Shown: in pieces, positions 55,276 through 64,000 of the stretch
How positions within the stretch are numbered: the stretch's first letter is position 1
Layout: every line of letters begins with the position of its first letter
Assembly: GCF_031457275.1 (NCBI RefSeq)
Contig: NZ_JAVDWH010000001.1
Location: 2,542,001 to 2,606,000 of the forward strand
Length of the DNA stretch: 64,000 nucleotides
Source: Aeromicrobium panaciterrae
Lineage (GTDB): Bacteria; Actinomycetota; Actinomycetes; Propionibacteriales; Nocardioidaceae
Direction: 5' to 3'
Translations under genes and position numbers: made by a program
The notes under the pieces: generated by a model
The model's database searches: none
Seen by the model: only the letters and a program-made list of their open reading frames with translations
What the model was told of the DNA's origin: nothing

Positions 55276-55956
55276 CTAGGAGCGGGTGATCGCTGCATTG
55301 GTCGCTCGTTCGAAGCCGCTGACGACGGCCTGCAATGTCAGGGCGCGCAAGCGCTGGATCGTGAGCTCAAGGCGCGCGGACTGTTCCTCTGTACGCGGGA
55401 CCGATCGATAGGGCTCGAGCACCTGGCGATTGAGGATGTCATTGAGGTCGTCACGCAAAGCCCGCATGTGCCGATCGATCGCCGCGCCTGCCTCGGTGAT
55501 GCCGTCGACGGGGATCTCGACATCGAGTAGCTCGACTCCCATTTCGAAGCCGGGAAGCGGCGAGTATGTACGACCGATTTGCTCGAGCACGCCGGTTTCG
55601 ACGAGCAGGGCAACTTCATCGGGGGTCAACTCCCGGCCCGCACGGCCATCGAGCTGCTGGCGATCGAGCACCTCAGGGCCGCTTGGTGACCACGAGGTGA
55701 GCACTGCTCGCTGGACGGCGATGTCCTCGACCGTCGCATCGTTGGGGATCCGGCTCATGGCCTTCTCAATGGCGGCCATCGTGAAGCCATGAGCCTGCAG
55801 CGCGCGAATCAGAGACAGACGAGCCGCGTGCTCCGCGCCGTAATAGGCGACCCGGCCACGCCGAGTCGGTGGGGGCAAAAGACCCAGGCTCGCGTAGTAG
55901 CGGGTCGTACGTACCGAGATGCCTGCGCTCTGGGCAAGTTCGTCGACGGTCTTCAT
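55276..55956 (-). CDS. MerR-family transcriptional regulator, divergent from mce operon
   Basis: A 226-residue regulator. The winged HTH occupies about 1-70: MKTVDELAQSAGISVRTTRY, then YASLGLLPPPTRRGRVAYYG and RLSLIRALQAHGFTMAAIEK. A helical middle follows, then a domain with LVETGVLEQIGRTYSPLPGF and a C-terminal helical bundle lacking metal-binding Cys pairs, so it should sense an organic ligand or protein. ATG 55956 is chosen; GTG 55986 is an alternative. Its promoter is embedded in palindromes shared with the mce promoter, so it probably regulates itself and mce. Confidence 0.87.
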   Translation of the reverse strand: MKTVDELAQSAGISVRTTRYYASLGLLPPPTRRGRVAYYGAEHAARLSLIRALQAHGFTMAAIEKAMSRIPNDATVEDIAVQRAVLTSWSPSGPEVLDRQQLDGRAGRELTPDEVALLVETGVLEQIGRTYSPLPGFEMGVELLDVEIPVDGITEAGAAIDRHMRALRDDLNDILNRQVLEPYRSVPRTEEQSARLELTIQRLRALTLQAVVSGFERATNAAITRS

Positions 55957-55990
55957 GTCGTCGATGGCATCGGAGAGGGCGGTCACAGCG

Positions 55991-56012
55991 GTGACAATAT
56001 TACTGTCACAGT
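55991..56012. promoter_or_regulatory. Operator candidate at the MerR-type gene promoter
   Basis: GTGACA-N7-TGTCAC (55991-56009) overlaps the perfect palindrome ACTGTCACAGT (56002-56012). A -10-like TAATAT for the regulator (56002-55997, minus strand) lies inside, so binding would control its own transcription. Confidence 0.6.
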
Positions 56013-56059
56013 GATCGCGCAATTCTTTCTGCAATCTGGGTGAAGTTCTGAAGAGACAA

Positions 56060-56077
56060 CCGTGACCCCGGTCACGG
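56060..56077. promoter_or_regulatory. Central palindrome in the MerR-mce spacer
   Basis: CCGTGACC-CC-GGTCACGG is a perfect 8-bp inverted repeat with a 2-base spacer, midway between the divergent genes. Its GTGAC/GTCAC cores match those of the site at 55991. Confidence 0.6.
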
Positions 56078-56094
56078 CGGCGTCGTTGAAGACC

Positions 56095-56125
56095 TTGACG
56101 ACGATGCCAGATTCACTGTTACAGT
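56095..56125 (+). promoter_or_regulatory. Promoter and operator of the yrbE-mce operon
   Basis: TTGACG (56095-56100) and TACAGT (56120-56125) are 19 bases apart, a plausible but long-spaced promoter. The palindrome ACTGTTACAGT (56115-56125) covers the -10 and differs from the site at 56002-56012 only in its central base. Confidence 0.6.
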
Positions 56126-56185
56126 TCCGGCGTCACATACCGGGGATCGATTTCGATGCCTCGCCCATGACGACGGAGGTGACGG

Positions 56186-57001
56186 GTGCCATCGGTTGAG
56201 TCCGCCACAGCCGTACGTCGTTCAAAGCGTCCTGGCCCGCTGCGTGAAGCCCTGGAGATGGTCCGTCTGGGTCTCGGTGTCGCACGCGCGATACCCGCCT
56301 CGATCTCCGCCCGACGCTTCCCCGCCGAAGAGACGATCCGACAGACGTGGTTCACCATCACGGTCTGCACTCTCCCTGCTCTGGCCGTGTGCATCCCATT
56401 CGGCGTGATCCTCGCGCTGCAGGTCAACGTACTGGCGCAAGAGGTTGGTGCCACCGGCTTCACCGGTGCCGGCAACACCCTCGCGGTCGTACGCCAGGGC
56501 GCGCCGATCATCACGGCACTGATGCTCTCGGGCGTCGCTGGCTCAGCCATCTGCTCAGAGCTCGGCTCCCGCCGAATCCGTGAAGAGATCGACGCGCTTG
56601 AGGTCATGGGCGTGCGGGTCACTGAACGAGTGGTCCTCCCCCGCGTCATCGCCACGGTCATCGTGTCGATGTTGCTCAACGGCGTAGTGACGTTCTTCTC
56701 GATCGTGACCACACTGCTGGTCAGCATCACCGTGCAGGACCTGTCCGCGGGTGGTTACTTGGCTTCGGTCGCGACACTGGCCCGACCCAGCGACATGGTT
56801 CTGTCCTTCGTCAAAGCCGGGATCTTCGGAACCATCTGTGCCGTCGTCGCCTCATACAAGGGACTGAAGGTGGAGAACGGTCCGTCCGGCGTCAGCGACG
56901 CCGTGACCTCGGCAGTCGTCACCAACTTCGTGCTGCTGTTCGCTGCGAACTTCGTCATCTCACAGACGCAAGCGACGCTCTTCCCGGGAGGCGTCGCGTG
57001 A
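56186..57001 (+). CDS. yrbEA: MCE-associated ABC permease, YrbEA type
   Basis: A 271-residue MlaE-family permease with about five or six membrane segments. The signature region is ALQVNVLAQEVGATGFTGAG and LMLSGVAGSAICSELGSRRI, followed by EEIDALEVMGVRVTERVVLP, the conserved coupling segment to the ATPase. It should pair with YrbEB in the inner membrane to move lipids delivered by Mce proteins. GTG 56186 is preceded by GGAGGT at five bases. First gene of the cluster. Confidence 0.94.
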   Translation: MPSVESATAVRRSKRPGPLREALEMVRLGLGVARAIPASISARRFPAEETIRQTWFTITVCTLPALAVCIPFGVILALQVNVLAQEVGATGFTGAGNTLAVVRQGAPIITALMLSGVAGSAICSELGSRRIREEIDALEVMGVRVTERVVLPRVIATVIVSMLLNGVVTFFSIVTTLLVSITVQDLSAGGYLASVATLARPSDMVLSFVKAGIFGTICAVVASYKGLKVENGPSGVSDAVTSAVVTNFVLLFAANFVISQTQATLFPGGVA

Positions 57002-57828
57002 GCATGCTGATGAAGGCCCTCGACGTCACCGTGGTGAATCCGCTGACCCGGCTTGGCGACTTCCTGTGGTTCTGCCTCGTGGCAATCATTCGTATCCCCC
57101 TCGCGATCCGCCACTACCCCGCCCAGATCGGCCGACACCTCGCAGAGGTGAGCCTCGGTGGCGGTGCGCTCGTTGTCGGCGGTGGAGCCGTGGGGGTCGT
57201 GTTCCTGATGTCGACCCTGACCGGCACCGAGGTCGGGCTCGAGGGCCACAACGGCCTCGACATCATCGGCCTCGCCCCGCTCGTGGGCTTCGTGTCGGGT
57301 TACGCCAACACTCGCGAGCTCGCCCCGATCATCGTGGCGCTCGCCTTCGCCGCGCGTATTGGCTGTGGCTTCACTTCACGCCTTGGTGCCATGCGCATCA
57401 GCGAAGAGATCGACGCCCTCGAGGCCATGTCGATCCGGCCCGTTCCATACCTCGTCTCGACCCGCATCGTGTCGGCGCTCATCATGGTGATCCCGCTCTT
57501 CCTGCTGGGGCTGGTCGGCACCTACATCACGACTGACCTGGTCGTCACGGTCTTCTACAACCAGTCGGCTGGCACGTACGACCACTACTTCTCGACGTTC
57601 GTGTCCCTCACTGACGTGCTGCTGGCTGCAGTCAAGGTCGTCGTGCTGACGACGATGGTGACGTTGGTGCACTGCTACTACGGCTTCTTCGCAACCGGTG
57701 GGCCTGAGGGAGTCGGCCGGGCGACCGGTCGCGCCATTCGCACCAGCATCATTGGCATCACGCTGTTGGACATCGCCCTGACACTCGCGCTGTGGGGCCC
57801 TGACCAGCAAGTGACGATTTCCGGATGA
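56998..57828 (+). CDS. yrbEB: MCE-associated ABC permease, YrbEB type
   Basis: A 276-residue MlaE-family permease. STLTGTEVGLEGHNGLDIIG, ANTRELAPIIVALAFAARIG, CGFTSRLGAMRISEEIDALE and AMSIRPVPYLVSTRIVSALI give the family pattern, with EEIDALEAM as the ATPase-coupling motif. GTG 56998 overlaps the yrbEA stop (GTGA) and its own stop overlaps mceA (ATGA). No gene for the cognate ATPase (MceG/MlaF) occurs nearby. Confidence 0.94.
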   Translation: MSMLMKALDVTVVNPLTRLGDFLWFCLVAIIRIPLAIRHYPAQIGRHLAEVSLGGGALVVGGGAVGVVFLMSTLTGTEVGLEGHNGLDIIGLAPLVGFVSGYANTRELAPIIVALAFAARIGCGFTSRLGAMRISEEIDALEAMSIRPVPYLVSTRIVSALIMVIPLFLLGLVGTYITTDLVVTVFYNQSAGTYDHYFSTFVSLTDVLLAAVKVVVLTTMVTLVHCYYGFFATGGPEGVGRATGRAIRTSIIGITLLDIALTLALWGPDQQVTISG

Positions 57829-59093
57829 ACACTGAACCCACTCGCTTGCAACGCCTGGTGATCGGCACCATCGGCCTGGTCGCGACCGTGGCCCTCGGCC
57901 TCTGGCTCACACTGTCCTACTTCGGCGTCTGGACCAGCGACACGAAGGTCTCGGTCGAAGTCGAGCGCCTCGGCGACGCCATTGGGCCCGGAGCCAAGGT
58001 CCGCTATCACGGCATCATCGTCGGGCGCGTGCTGCGACTGTCCGAGCACGGCGACGGCTATCGCCTGCAGTTGCTGGTGAATGAAGGCCATTCGGAGTCG
58101 ATCCCTTCGGACGCCACGGCCCGAATCCTCCCGAGCACTGTCTTCGGATCGGAGTATGTCGAGCTGTTGGCTGATAAGGATGCGACCGGCAGCGCCCATC
58201 TCGCGTCAGGCGACGTACTCGCCGCTGACAGCACCGAAGCAACTCTGGGCCTGATGAAATCATTCGATGAAGCCGAGCGGCTGATCTCAGCCGTGGATGC
58301 CGAAGACATCAACCGCATCACCGGCAAGCTTGCGCCCGCTCTCGCCGGCAAGGGCGACGACATCAAGGACTTCCTGGAGCGCACCGACCGTGTCGTCACC
58401 GACTTCAACCGGGACCTCCCCACCACGTGGGAGACCTTGACGCTCGCCACGAAGGCGCTGGGAACGATCGCCGACATCGAGCCTGACCTCACGTCGGCAA
58501 TGGACCATTCGCGTACGACCACCGACACGATCGTCGATCAGGACAAGAAGATTGGCTCGGTCATCAACGGGTCAGCGAAGGTTGTTGCCCGCGCCGACAC
58601 CCTGCTCAGCGGTGTCCAGGACATCCTGCTGCCCTTCGTCCAGCGTCTCGAGCGACTGACCGACCTCGCCGCCGACAACGCACCGTCTGTCCAGCAGATT
58701 CTGGCCAATTTCGCGAAGACTGGAACGAATGGCGCTGCCGGCGTGGACGACAACGCCATCCAGATGATCGGCACGATCGGGCTCGACATTCCACATGCCT
58801 ATACGGCGGACGATTGCACCCGCTACGGCCCGACCCTGATCGCAACGAACTGCGGCAATCCCGTTCCAGCTGAAGCTTCGTCTACGGCAACGACAGACAG
58901 TACGGGCATCGGCGGACTCGCAGCGAAGATCACGGACCTGCTCGAGCAGGCGGAAGCTGCGGCCAACGGTGACAAACCGGTCGGCGGCTCGGTCGCGACA
59001 TTGCCCGCTACGCCGTCGGACGCCGAGGAACCTGAAGGGCTTCTCGCGTTCCTTCGCGACCTCGGGCTGCTCATGGGGAGGACCACCCCATGA
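57825..59093 (+). CDS. mceA: MCE family protein, MceA position
   Basis: A 422-residue lipid-binding subunit. One N-terminal anchor (LVIGTIGLVATVALGLWLTL, about 10-29) is followed by the MCE/MlaD domain (about 38-115: VEVERLGDAIGPGAKVRYHG, IIVGRVLRL, ARILPSTVFGSEYVEL) and a long helical region to about 300. The last 100 residues are low-complexity with two cysteines (DDCTRYGPTLIATNCGNP). The helical parts are expected to build a tunnel across the envelope. Confidence 0.93.
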   Translation: MNTEPTRLQRLVIGTIGLVATVALGLWLTLSYFGVWTSDTKVSVEVERLGDAIGPGAKVRYHGIIVGRVLRLSEHGDGYRLQLLVNEGHSESIPSDATARILPSTVFGSEYVELLADKDATGSAHLASGDVLAADSTEATLGLMKSFDEAERLISAVDAEDINRITGKLAPALAGKGDDIKDFLERTDRVVTDFNRDLPTTWETLTLATKALGTIADIEPDLTSAMDHSRTTTDTIVDQDKKIGSVINGSAKVVARADTLLSGVQDILLPFVQRLERLTDLAADNAPSVQQILANFAKTGTNGAAGVDDNAIQMIGTIGLDIPHAYTADDCTRYGPTLIATNCGNPVPAEASSTATTDSTGIGGLAAKITDLLEQAEAAANGDKPVGGSVATLPATPSDAEEPEGLLAFLRDLGLLMGRTTP

Positions 59094-60106
59094 CCCTTCT
59101 GCGCCGATACACCTGGGAGATCGCCGGACTGGTGGCGTTCACCATCGTCGCCCTGATCATGACGATGACCGTCGCCAACACTCTTGCCCGTCGAGATCCT
59201 GGCGACACCACCCACTACTCCGCGATGTTCACCGATGCCTCGGGCATTCGTGTCGGAGATGACGTACGCATTGCAGGCGTCCGAGTCGGCCGAGTCGAGG
59301 GACGAGAGCTTGACGGCGGTCTGGCACGGATCGACTTCGTCGTGGCTTCCGATCAACCGATACGCACTGACACGGTGTCCCGCATCTCCTACCTGAACCT
59401 TCTGGGCCAGCGTTACCTGGCGCTCGAGGCCGGCTCCAAAACCGGAAAACGGCTGCCGGCGGGTTCGACGCTCGGTGTCGAGAACACCCGACCTGCGCTC
59501 GACCTGACCGAACTGTTCAACGCGTTCAAACCGATGTTTGAGGCTCTCGATCCCAAGGACGTCAACCTCATCGCAACCGAGGTCGTACAGACCTTGCAGG
59601 GTGAAGGCCCGCGACTCTCCCACTTGATGGAACAGACGTCGCAGCTCACGGCACATCTGGCCGACCGGGACGAGGTCATCTCGCGCGTCATCTCCAACGT
59701 CACGACCGTGATGCAGGCGACCTCGGAACACCGTGAAGAGCTGCGCTCGGTCATCGGCGGGCTGGACGGGTTGGTCGGCGATTTGGCTGACGATTCTGGT
59801 GACATCGATTCCGCCGTTGTGGCTCTCGACCGTATGACTGGGTCGCTCGGCGGCTTGCTCGACGAGTCGTCGGGACCGTTGAGCGCGGCACTCGCCCGGT
59901 TCGCCGAGCTGGGCAAGACGATCGTCGAGACCAACGACCTGCTCTCGACCACGCTCAAGGACACGCCGCGCCTGCTTGAGGGCTTCAACCGCGCGCTGAG
60001 CCACGGGTCATGGCTCAACACCTACGTCTGCACCCTGGACTTCGGTGCCTCATCTATCAAGACCCCTGACTTCCCCGGGCTTGGACATTCGAGGCCCTGC
60101 CGATGA
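59090..60106 (+). CDS. mceB: MCE family protein, MceB position
   Basis: A 338-residue Mce subunit. The anchor is IAGLVAFTIVALIMTMTVAN (about 10-29). The MCE domain (about 38-120) shows YSAMFTDASGIRVGDDVRIA, GVRVGRVEGRELDGGLARID and SYLNLLGQRYLALEAG. A helical region follows. Coupled by ATGA to both neighbours. YVCTLDFG near the end is the small conserved Cys region. Confidence 0.93.
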   Translation: MTLLRRYTWEIAGLVAFTIVALIMTMTVANTLARRDPGDTTHYSAMFTDASGIRVGDDVRIAGVRVGRVEGRELDGGLARIDFVVASDQPIRTDTVSRISYLNLLGQRYLALEAGSKTGKRLPAGSTLGVENTRPALDLTELFNAFKPMFEALDPKDVNLIATEVVQTLQGEGPRLSHLMEQTSQLTAHLADRDEVISRVISNVTTVMQATSEHREELRSVIGGLDGLVGDLADDSGDIDSAVVALDRMTGSLGGLLDESSGPLSAALARFAELGKTIVETNDLLSTTLKDTPRLLEGFNRALSHGSWLNTYVCTLDFGASSIKTPDFPGLGHSRPCR

Positions 60107-61071
60107 CTGCCACGACACGCAAGACACTCATCGTCGGGGTTGCCCTCGTGCTCCTCGTCCTGCTGGCGTGGCGCGCGCTCAAGCCAGCCGATGCCTCGTA
60201 CCGGGCCGAGTTCGTCCACGCTTCCGGCATCAAGACCGGCGACGAAGTACGCGTGGCTGGCATCGAGTCCGGAAAGGTCTCGAAGATCACGCTCGATGGG
60301 GGCAAGGCCGTCATCGACTTCAAGCTCGATCGCGACGTGACGTTGCACGCGGACTCTGAGGCACGGGTCAAGCTCGCATCGATGCTTGGCACCACGTTCC
60401 TGGATGTCTCGATCGGCAAGGGCCCGAAGCTCAACCACGGGGCCACAATCACCACTGAGCACACGGCGCCCTCGTACACCGTCTCCGATGTCTTCACCGA
60501 CAGCAACGACCTCTTGCACGACCTCGACCTCGACGCGATAGACAAGGCCGTCGCCACCTTGTCGACCGAGCTCGACCAGGACCCGAAACTCACCCAGCGC
60601 GCCATGGAAGACACGGCCGCATTGGCCCGCCTGATCGGTGACAAGGACAAGCAGATCGGCCGCCTGCTCACGTACACCCGCAGGGTCACCGGAGTCGTCC
60701 GCGATCAACAGGGCGAGCTCGAGCAACTTCTGGTCAACGCGGAGAAGGTCACCGGGCTGGTCCAGCGGCGCCGCGAAACGATCGAGCGACTGGTCCGCAA
60801 CGGGAAGCAAGTTGTGACGACCCTCGACACCATGGCCGACGACAACGACGCGACGATGCGGACGCTGCTGAATCAGTTCGATGACACGCTTGGGGTCCTG
60901 CAGGAGCATTCCGACGAACTCGGCCAGACCTTGCGCACCTCGGCGCCGTTTGCCCGCTACTTCGCCAACGCGACCGGAAATGGCCCGTGGCTCGAAGTCG
61001 GCGCCCCCTACTTCCTGCTGCCCGACAACATGTGGTGCCCGCTGGTCCAGCCGGAAGGCGGATGCTCATGA
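60103..61071 (+). CDS. mceC: MCE family protein, MceC position
   Basis: A 322-residue Mce subunit with anchor LIVGVALVLLVLLAWRAL (about 8-25). The MCE domain (about 30-110) has YRAEFVHASGIKTGDEVRVA, GIESGKVSKITLDGGKAVID and VKLASMLGTTFLDVSIGKGP. The helical remainder ends WCPLVQPEGGCS with two cysteines. It is coupled to mceD by ATGA. Confidence 0.93.
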   Translation: MTATTRKTLIVGVALVLLVLLAWRALKPADASYRAEFVHASGIKTGDEVRVAGIESGKVSKITLDGGKAVIDFKLDRDVTLHADSEARVKLASMLGTTFLDVSIGKGPKLNHGATITTEHTAPSYTVSDVFTDSNDLLHDLDLDAIDKAVATLSTELDQDPKLTQRAMEDTAALARLIGDKDKQIGRLLTYTRRVTGVVRDQQGELEQLLVNAEKVTGLVQRRRETIERLVRNGKQVVTTLDTMADDNDATMRTLLNQFDDTLGVLQEHSDELGQTLRTSAPFARYFANATGNGPWLEVGAPYFLLPDNMWCPLVQPEGGCS

Positions 61072-62165
61072 TCCGCTCGAGACTGTTCCAAGTCGTTGCC
61101 GCTGGAGTGGTGACCCTGCTGGTCGTCGCAGGCCTGCTGTTCGCCCTTCGCCCCAGCTCGCAGTCGACCTCGTTCACCCTTCAGTTCACCGACACCACTG
61201 GCCTCTATGTGGGCAATGACGTGCAGACGATCGGCGTACGCATCGGCGAGGTCACGAAGATCGAGCCGCGTGGCCCTCGAGTCGACGTGACGGTACGTGT
61301 CGACGAGCCGGTCGCCGCCGATGTCGGCGCCATCATCATGCAGTCAGCACTGGTCACCGACCGATTCGTCGAGCTCACGCCGCCCTGGACGAAGGGCCCC
61401 AAGCTTGCTGCTGGCGCGGTCGTTCCACTCGAACGTACGAAGGCGCCCGCCAACGTCGACGACATCTTCGCCGCAGTCGACGACCTGTTGGTCGCCGTGT
61501 CAGACACCACCAAGGACGGCAAGGACATCGGTGACCTGCTGTCAGTTACCGCTGAGCAGCTCGAGGGGAAGGGCGAGGCGTTTGCCGCACTGCTGAACGA
61601 GTCGGGCCGCGCGCTCACAACCGTCAGCGATGCCGACGAGGACCTCACCGCGATCGTCGGAGACGCCGACGACCTCGTCACCATGCTCGCCAAGCGCGAC
61701 AAGACGATCCGATCCTTGGCCAGCTCAGTCGCCGACAGCTCAGAGCTGTTCGCCGGGCAGCGCGAAGACATCGCGGAATCGCTGGTCACCCTCGACCAGC
61801 TGAGCCGCAAGATGACTGACTTCATCCAGGACAACGAGACCGTGATGACTCGTACGGTCGATCGCACTTCCGATGTCCTCGGCACGATCGCGGAACAGCG
61901 CGAAGCCATCGCGTCCGCCTTCAACACGCTGCCGCTTGCCGCCGAGAACATCGCGCGCGCCTACGACGCACCGTCGCGGAACCTGCGGGTGAGGCTCGAC
62001 GCACGGCGTACGGCGCCATACGGCGAGGTCGCACGCGAATCCTTCTGCAATGCGTTCGTGCCCGAGAACCTGGGAGTCTGCAAGACCCTCGTCGACGACA
62101 ACGCCGTCTTCTTCGACGGTTTCCTCGACATATTCGCGCGACTCGTGGACGGAGTGATTCCGTGA
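61068..62165 (+). CDS. mceD: MCE family protein, MceD position
   Basis: A 365-residue Mce subunit. The anchor is VVAAGVVTLLVVAGLLFAL (about 9-27). The MCE domain has FTLQFTDTTGLYVGNDVQTI, GVRIGEVTKIEPRGPRVDVT and QSALVTDRFVELTPPW. ATG 61068 is chosen over 61062 for the ATGA overlap with mceC. The helical region extends to a C-terminal segment with two cysteines (FCNAFVPENLGVCKTL). Confidence 0.92.
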   Translation: MIRSRLFQVVAAGVVTLLVVAGLLFALRPSSQSTSFTLQFTDTTGLYVGNDVQTIGVRIGEVTKIEPRGPRVDVTVRVDEPVAADVGAIIMQSALVTDRFVELTPPWTKGPKLAAGAVVPLERTKAPANVDDIFAAVDDLLVAVSDTTKDGKDIGDLLSVTAEQLEGKGEAFAALLNESGRALTTVSDADEDLTAIVGDADDLVTMLAKRDKTIRSLASSVADSSELFAGQREDIAESLVTLDQLSRKMTDFIQDNETVMTRTVDRTSDVLGTIAEQREAIASAFNTLPLAAENIARAYDAPSRNLRVRLDARRTAPYGEVARESFCNAFVPENLGVCKTLVDDNAVFFDGFLDIFARLVDGVIP

Positions 62166-63298
62166 TGCGCACACGTCCGCTCAGCCGTGTAGTCGTGGCC
62201 GGCGTCGCTCTCGCGACCGCGTTCACCTTGGGCGGCTGCGGGCCGGACCTGTACGACGTCCCACTGCCCAGCAAGGTCAAGGGCGAGACCTATTCATTGA
62301 GCGCCGACTTCGAATCAGCGCTCAACCTGCCGCCTGCGTCCCCAGTCAAGCTCGAGGGCAGGACGGTCGGCCAGGTCACGGAAGTCACGACGTCCGACTA
62401 CGTCGCGCATGTGTCATTCGAAGTCATGAAGGACACCAAGATCCCGACCGGATCCAGAGTCGAGGTACGACTGACAGCCCCCGTGGGTGAAGCATTCGTG
62501 GCCCTCATTCCACCCGCCGAGCCGACATCCGGTGTTCTTGCCGCGGGCACGAAGATCGGCCTGGAGAACACCAACACCGCGCCTGACACGACAGATCTGC
62601 TCACCGGAGTCTCGGCGGCAGTCACAGGTGGCAGCTACGCGGACCTGAAGGTCGTCGTTGACGAGCTGGCGACTGCGATGGACGGCTCGTCCACCACCGT
62701 CCGACATCTGCTGCGAGAGGTCGACAACCTCGTCACCTCCACCAACCGACACCGCGATGACATCGACGCCAGTCTCGACGCGCTGGATCGGCTGACGGCT
62801 GGGCTTGCCGACGACACCGAGCTCATCGCCTCTTCCATCAAGAAGCTCGACCCGGCAATCCGCACTCTCCAAGGGCATGAGGACAAGGCAGTCAAGCTCC
62901 TCGTTGCGCTCGACCGCATCGAGGCATCCAGCCGCAAGAACGTCGAGGGGATGCGCGGGCGCCTGCGCAACCAGCTCAAGGACACTCGCGTTCTCGTGGA
63001 CGCGGTGATCGCTGAGCGGGACCAGCTCCGACCCATCATGACCGGGATCACCGCATTCGCCGATGCTCTCGATCGCGCGACTCCGGGTGACTTCGCGATG
63101 TTCGACCTCACGTTCAACCTGATCCCGGCCTTGCCAGCGGCCCTCGGCAATGTGCCAATCGCCCCCGATGCCACGACTCTCCTCGAAGGCGATCTGGCCG
63201 AACTGCTGACTGGCCTGCAAGACACCGTGACCGACATTGCCGGCGATGAAGGCCTGGTGGGACAGCTCATCGGCGGTCTCGCGGGAGGTGGTGGCTGA
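62165..63298 (+). CDS. mceE: MCE family lipoprotein, MceE position
   Basis: A 377-residue subunit with a lipoprotein signal: MRTRPLSRVVVAGVALATAF ending in lipobox LGGC, as expected for MceE. The MCE domain (about 40-125) has YSLSADFESALNLPPASPVK, LEGRTVGQVTEV and VRLTAPVGEAFVALIPP. ATG 62165 shares a base with the mceD stop; GTG 62162 is equally possible. A helical region and a Gly-rich end follow. Confidence 0.93.
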   Translation: MRTRPLSRVVVAGVALATAFTLGGCGPDLYDVPLPSKVKGETYSLSADFESALNLPPASPVKLEGRTVGQVTEVTTSDYVAHVSFEVMKDTKIPTGSRVEVRLTAPVGEAFVALIPPAEPTSGVLAAGTKIGLENTNTAPDTTDLLTGVSAAVTGGSYADLKVVVDELATAMDGSSTTVRHLLREVDNLVTSTNRHRDDIDASLDALDRLTAGLADDTELIASSIKKLDPAIRTLQGHEDKAVKLLVALDRIEASSRKNVEGMRGRLRNQLKDTRVLVDAVIAERDQLRPIMTGITAFADALDRATPGDFAMFDLTFNLIPALPAALGNVPIAPDATTLLEGDLAELLTGLQDTVTDIAGDEGLVGQLIGGLAGGGG

Positions 63299-64000
63299 TG
63301 ACTCGCCTGATCGATCGTCGCAACACGCGCCTAGCCGAGGTTGTCCTGCTCGGCATAGCGATCCTCGGCCTGCTGTATCTCGGGGACCGAGTGATCGGAT
63401 CGTCCGTGTTCTCGTCGACGCATTCGGTATCGGTGCAGCTGCCATCCGGCGGCGGCATCTACCCGGGCGCCGATGTCACGTACCGCGGCAGCACCATCGG
63501 ACGCGTCGATGATGTGGAGCTCGAGGACGACGGCGTAGTCGTCAAGCTCCACATCAAGGGCAAGTTCGACGTACCGACCGACACAGAGGCAGTTGTCTCC
63601 AACCTCTCGGCGATCGGTGAGCAGCGACTCGACTTCCGCCCGCGTACGGACCACGGACCGTACCTGCGCGACGGCGACGTCGTTTCTCGGGCCAACTCCG
63701 CCGTACCCCGTCGGTTCGACACGATCATCAGGCACCTCGGCGATGTTGCAGGGCAGATCGACGAGAAGGATCTGACAACGATCACGTCGGAACTCGGAAC
63801 AGGGCTGGACACCGAGGTTGACCTCGCGACTCTGGGCCGCGACGCCGACAACGTCGTGTCAATGCTCGAGTTGCTGGCTCCCAAGATCACCCACCTGACC
63901 ACACAGGCTCAGGTACCGCTCCGCACCGTTGTCGATACGGGCGACGATCTGCGGTCATTCGCCGCGAACATCGATCTCGTGACTGCGCAGCTCGAAAAGT
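63298..64000 (+). CDS. mceF: MCE family protein, MceF position (truncated by window edge)
   Basis: The first 234 codons of an Mce subunit that runs off the right edge with the frame still open. The start ATG 63298 shares a base with the mceE stop. MTRLIDRRNTRLAEVVLLGI leads into an anchor (about 14-31), then VSVQLPSGGGIYPGADVTYR, GSTIGRVDDVELEDDGVVVK and AVVSNLSAIGEQRLDFRP form the MCE domain. It completes the canonical A-F set after two yrbE genes. Confidence 0.92.
   Translation, partial: MTRLIDRRNTRLAEVVLLGIAILGLLYLGDRVIGSSVFSSTHSVSVQLPSGGGIYPGADVTYRGSTIGRVDDVELEDDGVVVKLHIKGKFDVPTDTEAVVSNLSAIGEQRLDFRPRTDHGPYLRDGDVVSRANSAVPRRFDTIIRHLGDVAGQIDEKDLTTITSELGTGLDTEVDLATLGRDADNVVSMLELLAPKITHLTTQAQVPLRTVVDTGDDLRSFAANIDLVTAQLEK

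Follow-up and report, generated by a model that had tools for sequence, protein, structure and literature searches.

Mce1R is GntR/FadR-like and Mce3R is a TetR-type protein, and in these systems the regulator genes lie beside the mce operons. Regulators of the LiuR type, which are MerR proteins, govern branched-chain and fatty-acid utilization in proteobacteria. In mycobacteria, a single palindrome serves the autoregulated TetR-type repressor KstR at mce4 and at fadE, fadD, and thiolase genes (PMC1995591). The KstR motif is TnnAACnnGTTnnA, and cholesterol induces many of the KstR targets. A FadR-like repressor of mce1 is mentioned in PMC1810536. In actinobacteria, most of what is known about the matching of lipid import to lipid breakdown concerns TetR and GntR regulators of mycobacteria (PMC1995591). 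The fadAB promoters of Streptomyces coelicolor are enhanced by oleate, the regulatory signals and genes being then undescribed (PMC5539140), and in Nocardioides simplex cortisone acetate induces KR76_27330, a gene of the MerR family (PMC7807495). No report of a MerR-mce pair was found in the available portions of the open-access literature, including PMC5045206, PMC7807495, PMC8752091, PMC3751702, PMC8401907, PMC1810536, PMC5539140, PMC12505454, and PMC1995591, in keeping with the view of the preliminary description of this DNA that a MerR-type protein would represent a different control logic for mce.

The locus described here consists of a merR gene that faces an mce operon. The best explanation of the findings, to which we assign a probability of roughly 0.7, is that a dimer of the encoded MerR-type protein would bind a 17-bp dyad, TGACAG-N5-CTGTCA, at the merR and mce promoters, and that the protein belongs to a lineage concerned with lipid breakdown. 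It probably coordinates lipid import with lipid breakdown, and its predicted targets resemble a MerR-type regulon for lipid catabolism, with mce as one member rather than the only one. In having one regulator and one palindrome for mce, fadE, fadD, and thiolase genes it resembles the KstR regulon, but the protein family and the motif are different and the targets look like those of general fatty-acid oxidation. The regulator gene adjoins the mce operon as in the Mce1R and Mce3R systems, whereas the DNA-binding families are unrelated; with the LiuR-type regulators it would share the service of a MerR protein to acyl-CoA catabolism. The N-terminal MerR HTH and the location of a dyad inside a predicted 19-nt promoter spacer, here that of mce, are shared with the activators MerR, CueR, SoxR, and BmrR. 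Unlike these, the present protein has no cysteines, a C-terminal domain of its own of ∼150 residues, and a predicted metabolic regulon, with overlapping operators and mostly 17-nt spacing at fadE.

The window (the whole stretch of 64 kb that was analyzed) is part of a genome assembled as a single contig of 2.8 Mb. Within it, merR and yrbEA are divergent, yrbEA starting with a GTG, and the spacer between them is the site of the palindromes (Table 1). The merR product has an N-terminal MerR winged-HTH domain that scores 65.2 bits against MerR_1, for which the cut-off is 21.6. The layout of actinobacterial mce operons, two YrbE permeases and then six Mce proteins, is seen here in the form of two MlaE and five Mce proteins identified by family scan and a sixth by position. 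The ORF beyond merR is presumably rpsJ of the S10 ribosomal operon. A search of the genome for MlaE identified eight permease genes, and because these fall in four pairs, we count four mce operons; the three others are located near 145, 2163, and 2642 kb of the contig (L042–L044 on G000:C1). An in-frame GTG (55984–55986) adjoins the merR-side operator and is a possible alternative start of merR, perhaps on a leaderless mRNA, and an ATG abuts the operator in many mce-linked relatives of merR.

Table 1. Coordinates of genes, predicted promoter elements, and palindromic elements in the 64-kb window
Feature	Position	Strand	Remarks
merR	55276–55956	minus	ATG at 55956; 226 aa; MerR_1 by Pfam, E = 5.9e-18
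GTGACA-N7-TGTCAC	55991–56009	no strand	located in window
TGACAATATTACTGTCA, merR-side dyad	55992–56008	no strand	11/12 to TGACAG-N5-CTGTCA; sole 11/12 dyad of the 64-kb window
ACTGTCACAGT, palindrome at merR side	56002–56012	no strand	ACTGTNACAGT present in 28/29 mce-type spacers
CCGTGACCCCGGTCACGG = CCGTGACC-CC-GGTCACGG	56060–56077	no strand	CRP-like GTGA-N6-TCAC core or minus-strand terminator-like stem
Predicted mce -35, TTGACG	56095–56100	plus	sole TTGACN-N14..23-TANANT of the window, either strand
TGCCAGATTCACTGTTA, mce-side dyad	56105–56121	no strand	10/12; between -35 and -10 of predicted promoter
ACTGTTACAGT, palindrome over predicted mce -10	56115–56125	no strand	located in window
TTACAGTTCCGGCGTCA, second overlapping register	56119–56135	no strand	9/12; 14 bp downstream of mce-side dyad
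Predicted mce -10, TACAGT	56120–56125	plus	19-nt spacer after TTGACG
yrbEA (MlaE permease)	56186–57001	plus	GTG at 56186; Pfam PF02405, E = 5.8e-59
yrbEB (MlaE permease)	56998–57828	plus	Pfam PF02405, E = 7.5e-59
Five consecutive mce genes	57825–63298	plus	NCBIfam TIGR00996, 5/5 above its cut-off
Bounds of the five mce genes	57825–59093, 59090–60106, 60103–61071, about 61062–62165, 62162–63298	plus	
Sixth ORF of mce row	63298–64000	plus	mce-like by position alone; open ORF, cut by window end

The four palindromic elements reported in the preliminary description were all located in the window. The genome has three occurrences of ACTGTNACAGT, of which two fall in the merR-mce spacer and one inside an ORF, and since a reversed control pattern likewise has three occurrences, the argument for this palindrome comes from clustering and conservation and not from its genome count. 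Lack of conservation beside orthologous merR-mce pairs had been named beforehand as one outcome that would refute the proposed operator; it was not observed, the exact palindrome being retained in all but one of 29 such spacers versus 0 in 50 rounds of shuffles. Of the mce spacers 28 of 29 contain CTGTNACAG, as do 60 of 74 fadE spacers, with shuffle means of 0.26 and 0.5; L111, the fifth locus from the window's genus, lacks it. One orthologous spacer (G013, MerR 49% identical) carries both palindrome variants, the C form next to merR and the T form next to mce.

The better conserved unit in the aligned spacers is, however, the 17-bp dyad TGACAG-N5-CTGTCA, our predicted operator. It is preferred to the palindrome in this role because CTGTNACAG is missing from 14 of the 74 fadE spacers and one of the 29 mce spacers, whereas the dyad is missing from three and none, respectively; the ACTGTNACAGT/CTGTNACAG palindrome, being less widely kept, was set aside as the operator itself. 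Matches of at least 11/12 were found in 107 of 111 spacers (29/29 facing mce, 71/74 facing fadE, and 7/8 without a recognized neighbor), the exceptions being L059, L110, L143, and L162. The corresponding shuffle means were 0.08, 0.06, and 0, with at most one locus per shuffle round. Perfect 12/12 dyads occur in 20 of the 29 mce spacers, and a dyad of at least 10/12 lies in both halves in 25 of the 29. The loci on which the motif was counted are those whose spacer alignments it was derived from, and the fadA-facing paralog spacers and genome-wide exact counts described below are more independent checks.

Variation of the gap between the half-sites over the 111 spacers gave matches at 107 loci for a gap of 5, one for a gap of 6, and none for gaps of 0–4 and 7–10. 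A gap of 11 gave 30 (22 mce, 5 fadE, and 3 without a recognized neighbor), the examples listed being mostly drawn from the merR-side seam TGACTGTCACAG...CTGTCA. Among pairs of dyads in these spacers (each at least 9/12, within 40 bp), 72 of 81 are spaced by 14 bp, so the ACTGTNACAGT/CTGTNACAG palindrome can be read as the shared seam of two overlapping dyad registers. The multi-site operator for autoregulation and mce control that had been proposed is consistent with the conserved sites at both promoters, but its details require amendment: the best unit is the dyad, the palindrome is the overlap of two such units, and CCGTGACC-CC-GGTCACGG is not such a site.

A family search of 341 genomes listed 113 matches at E up to about 1e-60, of which 111 were analyzed, the close orthologs G322:C199 and G110:C1 being left out; L009, L028, L029, and L030 stand outside every count. 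Pairing with an acyl-CoA dehydrogenase (fadE) gene was found for 74 orthologs, in three of which (L160, L162, and L165) fadE is ∼1.2 kb off with something in between. A further 29 face yrbEA, and 8 have neither neighbor and were counted apart. The link between this regulator and mce that was originally suggested is consistent with the sites at the predicted mce promoter but is not specific, as judged from the predominance of fadE among the neighbors and from the same dyad at unlinked β-oxidation promoters. When neighbors are mapped on a tree of 135 MerR proteins, linkage to mce requires nine changes, at least seven of which are forced by supported branches. Long branches, such as those on which L002 and L145 meet, make individual switches uncertain, but the regulator gene appears to have changed neighbors between mce and fadE several times, and site and gene would have switched together.

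More distant paralogs (35–44% identical), which form one side of a branch in the same tree, provided 24 loci paired with fadA, five of them from family f3 of the same order. The dyad is present at 11/12 with the same gap in all 24 spacers, including 5/5 from f3; the distance to fadA is 703 and 1415 bases in two of these loci (L010 and L013). In family f18, where three loci facing fadE were compared, a 10/12 dyad is present in two and lacking in the third, and no dyad of at least 10/12 was found in the 6.6–6.7 kb around homologs (35–40% identical) near fadAB in seven f20 genomes (L288–L293 and L297).

Genome-wide counts in ten genomes gave 26 exact dyads versus 0 for the reversed pattern, and assignment with tblastn and Pfam places most of them ahead of lipid-catabolism or mce genes. 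Seven precede, or coincide with the start of, CoA-transferase family III genes; the same holds for LLM genes with or without an F420 partner (five), merR-fadE (three), merR-mce (three), and genes for MpaB-like oxygenases (two). Single cases precede genes for an acyl-CoA dehydrogenase, a thiolase, an acyl-CoA ligase, an α/β hydrolase, and an amine-oxidase-like protein, and one is without assignment. In three genomes where merR faces mce (G252, G302, and G270), an unlinked LLM gene that is followed at ∼1.1 kb by an acyl-CoA dehydrogenase has kept an exact dyad, such that the dyad is found in trans at an LLM gene in 3/3 mce-linked genomes of genus g25 (Nocardioides) that were searched. Genes resembling MpaB/rubber oxygenase repeatedly lie behind the dyad (L248, L171, and L266) and would be unexpected regulon members.

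The window's own genome has a second merR, of the fadA type, at 426,834, beside fadAB and a CoA-transferase/acyl-CoA dehydrogenase pair. An 11/12 dyad lies between this gene and fadAB, and an exact one 10 nt before the pair. Dyads with at most one mismatch number eight in this genome versus three in the control, five of them at gene starts and three within coding sequence. At the other three mce operons there is no dyad of at least 10/12 within the stretches compared.

A σ70 scan restricted to spacers of 16–18 nt gave no promoter in the merR-mce spacer. The predicted mce promoter has a 19-nt spacer, and TTGACN-N19-TACAGT is found at the seam in four mce-linked loci of the genus (the window, L057, L145, and L002). 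These four retain CTGTTACAG together with the 19-nt promoter, with MerR identities of 48–100% and spacers 50–59% alike to that of the window; the upstream half of the mce-side dyad is poorly kept in L057, L145, and L002. The fadA promoters of f3 read TTGNNN-N19-CANAAT in 5/5. Those of the window's genus (n = 19) have 17-nt spacing in three cases and 16 nt in one, the rest being without TTG at 15–21 nt. At fadE-side sites, TTG is placed at 17-nt spacing in 51 of 79 and at 19 nt in none. The MerR-type arrangement, a dyad in a promoter spacer of 19–20 nt, is therefore predicted at mce and at f3 fadA but not at most fadE promoters, and because of the mostly 17-nt spacing of the latter, one simple mode of MerR activation does not fit.

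In the model we favor, a MerR dimer would bind TGACAG-N5-CTGTCA at its own promoter and, in degenerate form, inside the mce promoter. The same dyad before acyl-CoA dehydrogenase, CoA-transferase family III, thiolase, acyl-CoA ligase, and LLM/F420 genes would place lipid breakdown under its control. Binding at merR would be autorepressing. A fatty acid or acyl-CoA, bound at the C-terminal domain, might switch mce on, and activation could occur through untwisting of the 19-nt spacer, as in MerR activators. Least certain in this model are the identity of the ligand and whether the control exerted at mce is positive or negative.

It could be argued that the regulator governs itself and β-oxidation and that what stands on the mce side in Aeromicrobium is a remnant, either decaying or merely adjacent, with mce not controlled. 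The mce-side dyad of the window reaches 10/12 only, its upstream half-site is degenerate in the three relatives named above, and no exact dyad is found at an mce operon in four genomes with a fadE-linked merR (G194, G198, G308, and G105). Yet there is no close YrbEA ortholog in those four, the best matches being 44–45% in two and absent at E up to 1e-60 in two. Retention of CTGTTACAG and the 19-nt promoter in four loci despite such dissimilar spacers, and the perfect dyads in more than half of the mce spacers, run counter to decay, and we regard a remnant as unlikely.

A different lipid regulator could be the reader of the dyad, with merR just one of its targets; there is a precedent in the TetR-type KstR, whose targets include mce4 and many lipid genes (PMC1995591). 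Such an arrangement seems quite improbable here, given that the dyad follows merR through at least seven neighbor changes, lies beside it in almost every locus analyzed, and recurs with the same gap wherever the divergent paralog faces fadA. The position of ACTGTTACAGT across the predicted mce -10 might be taken to mean that only promoter boxes are conserved, their symmetry being due to chance. Promoter constraint of this kind would predict neither the sharp dependence on a gap of 5 nor the 14-bp phasing nor the excess of exact sites in ten genomes, and we give it very little credence. The favored reading, a MerR regulon with a clear and rare 17-bp motif over mce, fadE, caiB, fadD, fadA, and LLM/F420 genes, would be a testable Nocardioidaceae equivalent of the mycobacterial systems, and its composition hints at fatty acids, rather than sterols, as the substrate class of the Mce importer.

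The absence of metal-binding cysteines from the regulator, pointed out earlier, extends to every one of its 226 residues. Metal sensing was rejected because of this, and the scores are far below the equivalog cut-offs for CadR, MerR, and CueR. HTH residues Arg-16, Arg-19, and Tyr-21 do not vary among 59 diverse members, which include fadA-type proteins. AlphaFold models gave pLDDT 73 with pTM 0.43 and pLDDT 84 with pTM 0.49, and the values of the second make the domain arrangement uncertain. Fold searches returned good matches only for the HTH part (VIA-align Z of 10–12 over about 70–105 residues to PbrR, CadR, CueR, and SoxR chains), the C-terminal domain being without clear relative. The 50 matches listed in a viral-library search were HTH-type or unnamed proteins, with nothing informative on that domain.

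One lead for the C-terminal domain came from Foldseek, in which Rv1264N, the regulatory domain of the mycobacterial adenylyl cyclase Rv1264, appeared at rank 40 (E 0.036, TM 0.43/0.51, root mean square deviation 7.3); it was not among the 50 VIA-align matches listed. Oleate has been found in the structure of the Rv1264 regulatory domain. For the window protein, five families are listed at E up to 10, and the corresponding one, PF16701 (Ad_Cy_reg), is not among them, the Pfam cut-off not being reached. For comparison with the family, 27 of 30 matches were extracted and 22 aligned, L340 having a stop; also omitted were L326, the near-copy L314, and L329 and L341, whose reading frames are doubtful. 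The C-terminal parts of the window group alone aligned with it over 142 columns (score 13.5, probability 1.6%; eight shuffles up to 5.3), and the best whole-protein alignment sets the MerR HTH, residues 2–58, on the cyclase domain (probability 10.3%).

A third group of MerR paralogs (L362 at G000:C1:2409580–2410236 and L343–L357) was picked up by a loose PF16701 search in five of 13 genomes (E 8.5e-4 to 0.16). Against the cyclase regulatory domains, its C-terminal profile gave an alignment of 143 columns (score 21.3, probability 13.8%; 10 shuffles up to 7.5); against the window group, the probability was 97.7%. The pooled set scored 19.0 against PF16701, and one of 20 shuffles reached 15.2. 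On this mixed evidence the C-terminal domain may bear some resemblance to the Rv1264 regulatory domain, a weak lead and not a membership. A joint reading would be a fatty-acid-sensing MerR protein, its C-terminal domain of Rv1264 regulatory-domain stock, that links mce import to β-oxidation by activating at 19-nt and repressing at 17-nt spacers, the two registers 14 bp apart forming the switch; we consider it possible but doubtful. If the resemblance were true, the effector domain would be a ligand domain that is not known from any described MerR protein.

The remaining element of the spacer, CCGTGACC-CC-GGTCACGG, was rejected as a MerR site, as it is without dyad halves and its core, GTGACCCCGGTCAC, is confined to two of 111 spacers, those of the window and its closest relative, L057. 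The stretch is the one terminator-like site within 55500–56600, on the minus strand (shuffles 0.3), and fits 8 of 10 positions of the CRP/GlxR core TGTGA-N6-TCACA. Among the mce spacers, 27 of 29 reach a CRP-like score of at least 8/10 (shuffles 3.9), compared with 6 of 74 fadE spacers; the count is confounded, as gaps of 3, 9, and 11 also give 23–26 of 29. The CRP-like dyad lies ∼63 nt upstream of the predicted mce start. The sequence TTGACG-N4-TCACA is present in 20 of 29 mce spacers versus 0 of 74 fadE spacers.
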